From positions 67,998 to 131,997 of the forward strand of contig SHNE01000044.1 in assembly GCA_004295015.1 (NCBI GenBank): a stretch of 64,000 nt of DNA, written 5' to 3'. Shown in pieces: positions 39,103 through 40,543 of the stretch. Below the pieces are notes generated by a model. That model searched no databases and was not told the origin of the DNA. It was given only the letters and a program-made list of their open reading frames with translations. The stretch comes from Bacteroidota bacterium. Its GTDB lineage: Bacteria; Bacteroidota; Bacteroidia; AKYH767-A; 2013-40CM-41-45. A program made the position numbers and the translations under genes. The stretch's first letter is position 1; each line of letters opens with the position of its first letter.

Positions 39103-39126
39103 TCCCCCCCCCAAAAAATCCGGTAC

Positions 39127-39146
39127 GGACAGGGCATGCCCTGTCC
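39127..39146. repeat. Perfect 20-bp palindrome (REP-like) flush with the transposase stop codon
   Basis: GGACAGGGCATGCCCTGTCC is its own reverse complement and ends exactly where the TAG stop codon of the minus-strand transposase gene begins (39147-39149). Read on the minus strand the junction is TAG-GGACAGGGC..., resembling the tetranucleotide-plus-hairpin layout of REP sequences handled by REP-associated transposases. A run of nine C (39104-39112) lies just beyond. No second copy was found in this window. Confidence 0.7.
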
Positions 39147-39716
39147 CTAGATCAAATCCGGATCCGAATCAATCGGCGCTATCGGATTCCAATTCGCCGG
39201 ATTATTCTTTATATACTTTGATATTCTATCCAACGCCTCCGGCGTACGAATAACGTGATCGTGAAATCGTACTTGCCAACCAAATTCTTTATTGAATGGA
39301 CGCGCTAATCGTGTGACTGCCGATTTAAATGACCCAACCATTGCTGAGACCGTATTTTTGCCTTGATTGCGAATTCGTTTCTGTCCCGGAGATAATTCAG
39401 TGTACGACGTCTCAGGTCTTACATTGAAAACTATCACATCCTCCTTTTTAATAAATATTATTCCATGGAAATGATCCGGCATAACCTGAAACTCCCCCAG
39501 CTCAACATTGTAAAAATGATCAGGTAGTTCCTTCCAGCAATTGTAGGCGATCAAACCTGTTTTGTTGAGTATCATTTCCCCTAATTCAATCCGACCAAAT
39601 AGGTGTTTTCTATCTTTCGTGACTATAGTAATAAAATATGCCCCGGGTTTTGCATAATCCCAAGCCTGCCACCGGGGCGATTTTCTTTGTGGCATTTTGT
39701 GCATTTGTGATCTCAT
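39147..39716 (-). CDS. REP-associated tyrosine transposase (RAYT, IS200/Y1 family)
   Basis: The 189-residue protein is a single-domain Y1 HUH nuclease. GAYFITIVTKDRKHLFG forms the first strand, the metal-binding HxH is His82-Phe-His84 in MPDHFHGIIFI, and the catalytic tyrosine is most likely Tyr168 in ISKYIKNNPANW. RAYT enzymes cut and join single-stranded DNA at REP hairpins and are usually domesticated single-copy genes. The perfect palindrome at its 3' end is the natural candidate substrate. All catalytic residues are intact, so this does not look like a pseudogene. Confidence 0.9.
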   Translation of the reverse strand: MRSQMHKMPQRKSPRWQAWDYAKPGAYFITIVTKDRKHLFGRIELGEMILNKTGLIAYNCWKELPDHFYNVELGEFQVMPDHFHGIIFIKKEDVIVFNVRPETSYTELSPGQKRIRNQGKNTVSAMVGSFKSAVTRLARPFNKEFGWQVRFHDHVIRTPEALDRISKYIKNNPANWNPIAPIDSDPDLI

Positions 39717-39940: not shown

Positions 39941-40543
39941 ATGAACTATTCAGAACAAGCACCACGCGAACATGAAAGTCTGGAGCTCATTCACAAAATG
40001 ATCAGCTCTGCAAAAAGAGATTTCGAAGACGACAGTTTTCATTATTTAATTTGGGGATGGTTGGTTTTTCTTGCCTGTGCCACCCAATTCATTTTAATGC
40101 AAATGAATATTTCCTACAACTATATCGGTTGGATGATATTTATGCCGACAGGAGCAATCGCTTCTATGATTTATGGTTACCGGCAAGACAAAAAGCAAAG
40201 AGTAAAAAGTTATACTGATGAAGTGATGAAGTATGTATTAATTTCATTTCTTGTTGCACTTGGAACTGTTTTGATCTTCATGCCAAAACTGGGTCTCATG
40301 ACTTACCCGCTTGTAATGCTAACCTATGGTACCTGGCTTTTTACATCCGGTGGAATGATTAAATTTCGTCCTTTGATTATTGGTGGTATATTAAACTGGG
40401 CGCTTGGTATCTTGTCGGCTTTCGTGACTTTTGAATATCAGCTCATGATTCTTGCCTTGGCTGTGCTTCTTGGATATATTATTCCCGGATACATGCTAAA
40501 AAACAAATTTAAATTGATGCAACAGAATAATTCGCTAAGCTGA
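39941..40543 (+). CDS. Six-helix membrane protein of unknown function paired with a regulator
   Basis: About 200 residues from ATG at 39941; the upstream in-frame TTG lies before the promoter and is rejected. After a hydrophilic head (SLELIHKMISSAKRDFEDDSFHYLIWGW) come about six transmembrane helices. I recognise the type, a Bacteroidota membrane protein encoded just upstream of a small winged-helix regulator, but know of no assigned function. The arrangement suggests that the membrane protein is regulated by, or signals to, the DNA-binding partner. Confidence 0.75.
   Translation: MNYSEQAPREHESLELIHKMISSAKRDFEDDSFHYLIWGWLVFLACATQFILMQMNISYNYIGWMIFMPTGAIASMIYGYRQDKKQRVKSYTDEVMKYVLISFLVALGTVLIFMPKLGLMTYPLVMLTYGTWLFTSGGMIKFRPLIIGGILNWALGILSAFVTFEYQLMILALAVLLGYIIPGYMLKNKFKLMQQNNSLS

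Follow-up and report, generated by a model that had tools for sequence, protein, structure and literature searches.

A REP-transposase-like gene in a Bacteroidota bacterium with a REP-like palindrome adjoining its stop codon

The window, a stretch of 64 kb (64,000 nucleotides) of a Bacteroidota genome analysed as a whole, probably holds a small REPtron-like unit, with a gene for a TnpAREP-type single-strand HUH transposase resembling subclass 2.4 and one presumed cognate REP-like hairpin at its 3' end. The probability of this reading is put at about three in four. The features of the locus are collected in Table 1.

Table 1. Features of the transposase locus, in window coordinates.
Feature	Position	Strand	Evidence or remark
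REP-like palindrome GGACAGGGCATGCCCTGTCC, perfect, 20 bases	39127..39146	.	Window match count, folding, palindrome scan
TAG stop codon, coinciding with bases 2-4 of the coding-strand CTAG	39147..39149	-	
Coding-strand foot CTAG	39147..39150	-	GTAG in many relatives
Other foot GTAC	39123..39126	+	Same in all 3 listed copies of L006 and all 7 of L007
Direct repeat AAATCCGG, 8 bp, flanking the hairpin	39116..39123; second copy 39154-39161	+	Weak candidate for an insertion scar
REP-transposase-like (TnpAREP/RAYT) CDS, 189 aa, TAG stop included	39147..39716	-	
H82-F83-H84, HUH motif	39465..39473	-	48-row alignment; coordinates derived from the ORF
Y168, predicted catalytic tyrosine	39213..39215	-	Profile alignment, 48-row alignment
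W147-Q148 to R157, counterpart of the GTAG-contact region of E. coli TnpAREP	39246..39278	-	Alignment and residue list in passages of PMC6006769
Variable loop, approximately residues 92-120, disordered in the model	39357..39443	-	In-frame REPs lie between HUH and Y in relatives; none here

The palindrome and the stop codon

As the original prediction held, the palindrome is perfect and follows the TAG stop directly on the minus strand, with a spacer of 0 bases. It was also said to have no second copy in the window, and GGACAGGGCATGCCCTGTCC was indeed the sole match in the 64 kb at up to 3 mismatches, with 0 matches in 100 shuffles. No other loop-free perfect palindrome with arms of at least 10 bases was present in the 64 kb; mononucleotide-shuffled windows (n = 10) held a mean of 0.1. 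Folding of positions 39110-39165 as single-stranded DNA gave -13.5 kcal/mol (z -4.55) for the coding (minus) strand and -11.1 kcal/mol (z -3.20) for the plus strand. Read from the sequence, the foot tetranucleotide lies in the TAG phase, so that the repeat supplies the stop codon. The suggestion that the stop may form part of the foot of the repeat fits a recurrent TAG-hairpin pattern among relatives, although the foot itself is CTAG and not GTAG. The direct repeat AAATCCGG was considered as an insertion scar and left as a weak candidate, two other pairs of 8-11 bp occurring in the same 821 bases.

The transposase

The prediction of a REP transposase was supported, as a relative of these enzymes, by a profile match, by fold and by an NCBIfam match below cut-off. 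Scores were 52.6 bits against NCBIfam NF047646 (REP_Tyr_transpos; cut-off 80) and 19.9 bits against Pfam PF01797 (Y1_Tnp; cut-off 23); curated cut-offs serve annotation, and the gene is called a REP-transposase relative because of the fold and motif evidence. Comparison of a seven-row profile with PDB sequences yielded one match only, 4ER8 (E 3.1e-7). The same structure was the best Foldseek match (E 7.6e-7) to an AlphaFold model built from 48 rows (mean pLDDT 83.9, pTM 0.75; below 50 at residues 95-108 and 112-118), followed by the IS608 and ISDra2 transposases. PHROGs and PADLOC assigned no family to the gene.

The HUH and single-tyrosine core of the Y1 transposase fold, which characterises TnpAREP class 2, is present, and both the HFH motif (H82-F83-H84) and Tyr168 are intact as foreseen. 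In the 48-row alignment H82, W147, Q148, R157 and Y168 are invariant and H84 is conserved in at least 90% of rows. The residues that contact GTAG in the E. coli enzyme (W94, Q95, E100, H101 and R104) correspond to W147, Q148, D153, H154 and R157; passages of PMC6006769 also report the change of the contact residue from E to D in other TnpAREP subclasses.

The gene is present in one copy in the genome, and the best identity of its product among 42 genomes of the order is 43%. In a 127-row tree the enzyme formed a long branch inside no starred set. A 37-row tree, sampled as the seven rows of interest and every fourth other row, grouped it with L006-L008, L011 and L027 (support 53/78), and the addition of L018 to this group was not rejected (p-AU 0.217). 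Its placement in these trees is uncertain. A second, weak match to the REP-transposase model lies elsewhere in the same genome (L003, G000:C3:178615-178899, minus strand); by eye, its tyrosine motif YILNQEEHH resembles that of subclass 1.2 in passages of PMC6006769, a different subclass.

Copies of the repeat in the host genome

At up to 2 mismatches the 18-base core occurs once in the genome of 3.86 Mb. The relaxed pattern GGACANGNCATGNCNTGTCC matched at 7 places at up to 3 mismatches, of which 2 were free of mismatches (the window and C27:43670-43689) and the remaining 5 equalled the number given by the reversed control (5); the genome is in 56 contigs, and repeat copies at gaps could be missed. 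The many extragenic copies with the same flank that had been named as support for a REP family did not appear, the core having 1 copy and the relaxed pattern 2. A large proliferated REP family is excluded and a two-copy family remains. It had also been proposed that, lacking other copies, the palindrome would be only a local terminator-like hairpin; this is too blunt, since in G004 and G265 the single match to the palindrome class lies in the transposase ORF.

The second copy (L021, G000:C27:43670-43689) lies between convergent genes and has A/T tails. It is flanked by an OmpA-like reading frame, recognised by eye, and a gene for a SpoU-family methylase, which face each other, and the same junction in G010 and G005 holds terminator-like hairpins of other sequence (by eye). 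This copy resembles a bidirectional terminator, and a REP may have been recruited in that role.

Palindromes in and beside related genes

The palindrome class of the window recurs inside the transposase reading frame of L006, L007, L008, L011, L018 and L027, where the in-frame copies encode peptides such as VGTRHAVSLP, and in L006-L008 it also stands beside the gene. Among 11 genomes of the family the class was found only in the host (G000) and G004; homologues of the enzyme at E<=0.001 were found in four, G000, G002, G004 and G007. Since the strict pattern GGGACANGGCATGCCNTGTCC matched in 2 of 395 genomes scanned across the phylum, the survey was continued with the protein and with a less strict GTAG pattern. 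Of the 395 Bacteroidota genomes, 173 carried a homologue at E<=1e-10, and GTAGRGRC-N(10-15)-GYCYCTAC was matched in 165. The GTAG palindrome occurred in 122 of the 173 genomes with a homologue vs 43 of the 222 without (Fisher p 4e-25, phylogeny ignored); 51 of the 173 had a homologue and no GTAG match, and the pattern was not found in the host genome. In the Bacteroidota the gene and the repeat class are found together even in genomes where the repeat has scarcely multiplied. Three genomes (G290, G357 and G015) carried 26, 9 and 9 GTAG-tagged palindromes with no homologue at E<=1e-10; their enzyme may be another of the superfamily, lost, or below the cut-off.

The matches listed (30 as loci and 100 more regions, weaker matches missing) gave 148 distinct ORFs, the window included, and 129 after 19 that were not full length had been dropped. 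A perfect palindrome with arms of at least 8, 9 or 10 bases was found within 114, 102 and 85 of these 129 listed full-length ORFs respectively, against 15.4, 4.45 and 2.0 for their synonymous shuffles and 40, 18 and 9 of 237 neighbouring ORFs. The figure of 102 of 129 may overstate the phylum because the seed alignment that set the ranking has an in-ORF palindrome in 6 of its 7 rows. Where both motifs were recognised (118 ORFs, 11 of the 129 dropped), 96 of the 105 palindromes whose arms had 9 or more bases lay between HUH and tyrosine, and 89 of the 118 ORFs had at least one there. The other 9 lay before HUH; ORFs were read from stop to stop, and some of these may precede the true start. The NTAG feet of in-ORF palindromes were in codon phase 0 (40) or 1 (10), the remaining phase being that of a TAG stop.

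The window ORF has no perfect palindrome, and its best imperfect one was without significance. A remnant of an in-frame REP in the variable loop was accordingly rejected: that imperfect palindrome (10 of 13 pairs) was equalled within the loop by 14% of the synonymous shuffles of the CDS and by 6% of the plain ones, and alignment of the loop to REPs was no better than chance. Elsewhere in the phylum, L058 (G017:C2:2300411-2302053) comprises three tandem transposase homologues, at least two with different in-ORF palindromes, and L013 (G007) has a 60-base perfect palindrome (arms of 30) at in-ORF nucleotides 436-495 of a homologue reading frame of 349 aa.

Recurrence within transposase reading frames is not a property of terminators, and bears on the alternative of a mere transcription terminator or mRNA-end hairpin that does not serve the enzyme as a substrate. 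The palindrome does lie between convergent genes, as does the second genome copy with its A/T tails and the terminator-like hairpins at that junction in G010 and G005; the minus strand also has a predicted terminator-like site at 39130-39118, and the scanned 1.3 kb held 4 such sites vs a shuffle mean of 1.2. The called site, however, is a small 5-pair stem that overlaps one arm and is not the palindrome, and the plus strand yielded no such site at the palindrome. We consider this explanation unlikely; a palindrome standing alone at the stop of a transposase gene is not necessarily a fortuitous terminator.

Stop-adjacent hairpins in relatives

Among the 148 ORFs, window included, hairpins of at least 8 pairs with at most 1 mismatch began between positions -1 and +3 relative to the stop, a range set after the list was seen, in 10 of 40 ending in TAG, 1 of 71 ending in TAA and 0 of 37 ending in TGA. 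The difference between TAG (10/40) and the others (1/108) gave a Fisher p of 7e-6, phylogeny ignored. By eye, seven of the nine TAG cases other than the window have GTAG with a REP-like arm at the stop (L008, L032, L078, L088, L104, L114 and L144), and two (L084 and L136) are without it. In L197, of the same order, the GTAG arrangement at the stop is repeated and there is no in-ORF palindrome; in L007 a TGA stop lies inside the palindrome.

A hairpin touching the stop might instead act as a translational brake, hindering ribosomes there and lowering the dose of enzyme. The spacing of zero bases is compatible with such an effect, REPs less than 16 nt from a stop codon being cited in a passage of PMC12306157 as downregulating translation, and stop-adjacent hairpins do recur in relatives. 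Against this, 137 of the 148 ORFs are without a hairpin in the -1 to +3 range, and we judge a brake to be distinctly improbable as the explanation.

The genomic site

In G010, G002 and G007 the next gene after a tryptophan-2,3-dioxygenase-like gene is, by eye, orthologous to the one at 39941-40543 of the window, and between the two there is neither a transposase nor a palindrome, that is, the site is empty. The other seven genomes of the family, judged by eye, have different neighbours within 1.5 kb. Alignment of the spacer preceding the downstream gene scored 102 for G010 vs 60 for the maximum of 200 shuffles, 88 vs 36 for G007 and 78 vs 61 for G004; the margin for G002 was slight (90 vs 88). 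As the genes are adjacent in relatives, the unit would appear to have been gained between the dioxygenase-like gene and the downstream neighbour.

Variable presence of the gene between genomes, together with the fold similarity to the IS608 and ISDra2 transposases, could also suggest a decayed IS200-like insertion sequence with the palindrome as its right-end hairpin, but this is very improbable given the single gene copy, a best identity of only 43% among 42 genomes of the order, a REP transposase as best fold match and no hairpin of the palindrome class found upstream of the gene.

The feet of the repeat

By analogy with studied TnpAREP enzymes, the protein encoded here most likely binds the hairpin that the palindrome forms in single-stranded DNA and most likely cleaves and joins DNA near it; any effect of the overlap of stop and foot is likewise something we infer. 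The repeat has hardly spread, with two copies in the genome, perhaps because CTAG and GTAC feet would be poor guides.

Of 31 listed places of the palindrome class, duplicates by centre sequence left out and one probably spurious, 13 had GTAC on one strand: the window, L006 (3 of 3), L007 (7 of 7), L188 and L192. Among the other 18, without GTAC, GTAG was frequent. The GTAC foot is common to the window and the Marinifilaceae copies. Point mutants of other REP transposases' substrates have been studied in vitro in PMC8266576, passages of which cover enzymes of groups 2 and 3. There, the S. maltophilia enzyme kept binding and showed less cleavage with CTAG and none with GTAC, the Marinomonas enzyme cleaved at GA or GT with GTAC, and the E. 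coli enzyme tolerated no change of GTAG. Carried over to the window enzyme, these effects would apply to feet that are natural versions of the mutants. It is conceivable, if doubtful, that the foot drifts under two constraints, as guide of the enzyme and as stop of its own gene: CTAG would keep the stop and weaken cleavage, GTAC would be a natural guide variant retargeting it from CT to GT or GA, and repeat and enzyme dose would be coupled at one tetranucleotide. The window locus and its Marinifilaceae relatives offer ready substrates for probing guide recognition in subclass 2.4.

Comparison with known systems

In-gene REPs, TAG stops supplied by REPs and REPs overlapping the 3' ends of transposase genes are already in print. 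According to a passage of Di Nocera et al. 2013 (PMC3733652), the termini of GTAG REPs often give flanking ORFs their TAG stop, and flanking repeats overlapping the 3' end of a transposase gene are indicated in the legend to its Figure 8. Passages of PMC3390384 contain nothing on stop codons in RAYT genes, and a count of foot-stop overlaps among such genes was not found in titles and the beginnings of abstracts, a literature taken without supplements or non-open papers. The GTAG REPs and REPtrons of PMC3733652, in the passages concerned, are multi-copy and carry the GTAG tag, whereas the window repeat has two copies by the relaxed pattern and altered feet, CTAG (coding strand) and GTAC (opposite strand) in place of the GT[AG]G of a GTAG REP family. 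IS200/IS605 elements are near-identical and multi-copy; here the gene is single.

E. coli TnpAREP on its REP hairpin (4ER8), the best match by both profile and fold, shares W, Q, H and R of the GTAG-contact set with the window enzyme, in which the contact E is D; identity in the fold alignment is 18%, and the window enzyme has an extra disordered loop.

The closest likeness is to TnpAREP subclass 2.4 (Quentin et al. 2018), which a table of PMC6006769 equates with group 4 of Bertels. As described in passages of that paper, the subclass occurs in Cyanobacteria and Bacteroidetes and has double-foot REPs as well as in-frame REPs between HuH and Y. The locus agrees in belonging to the Bacteroidetes, in its WQ and YIxNNP motifs (YIKNNP), in length (189 against a median of 194), in a two-footed palindrome, in low gene copy number and in relatives with in-frame REPs between HuH and Y. 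It differs in an HuH motif of DHFH and not NH[IFV]H, in feet of CTAG and GTAC and not GT[AG]G, and in a gene copy without the in-gene REP that is common, not universal, in the subclass. The locus falls in a group that is known though little studied; its repeat has few copies and unusual feet.
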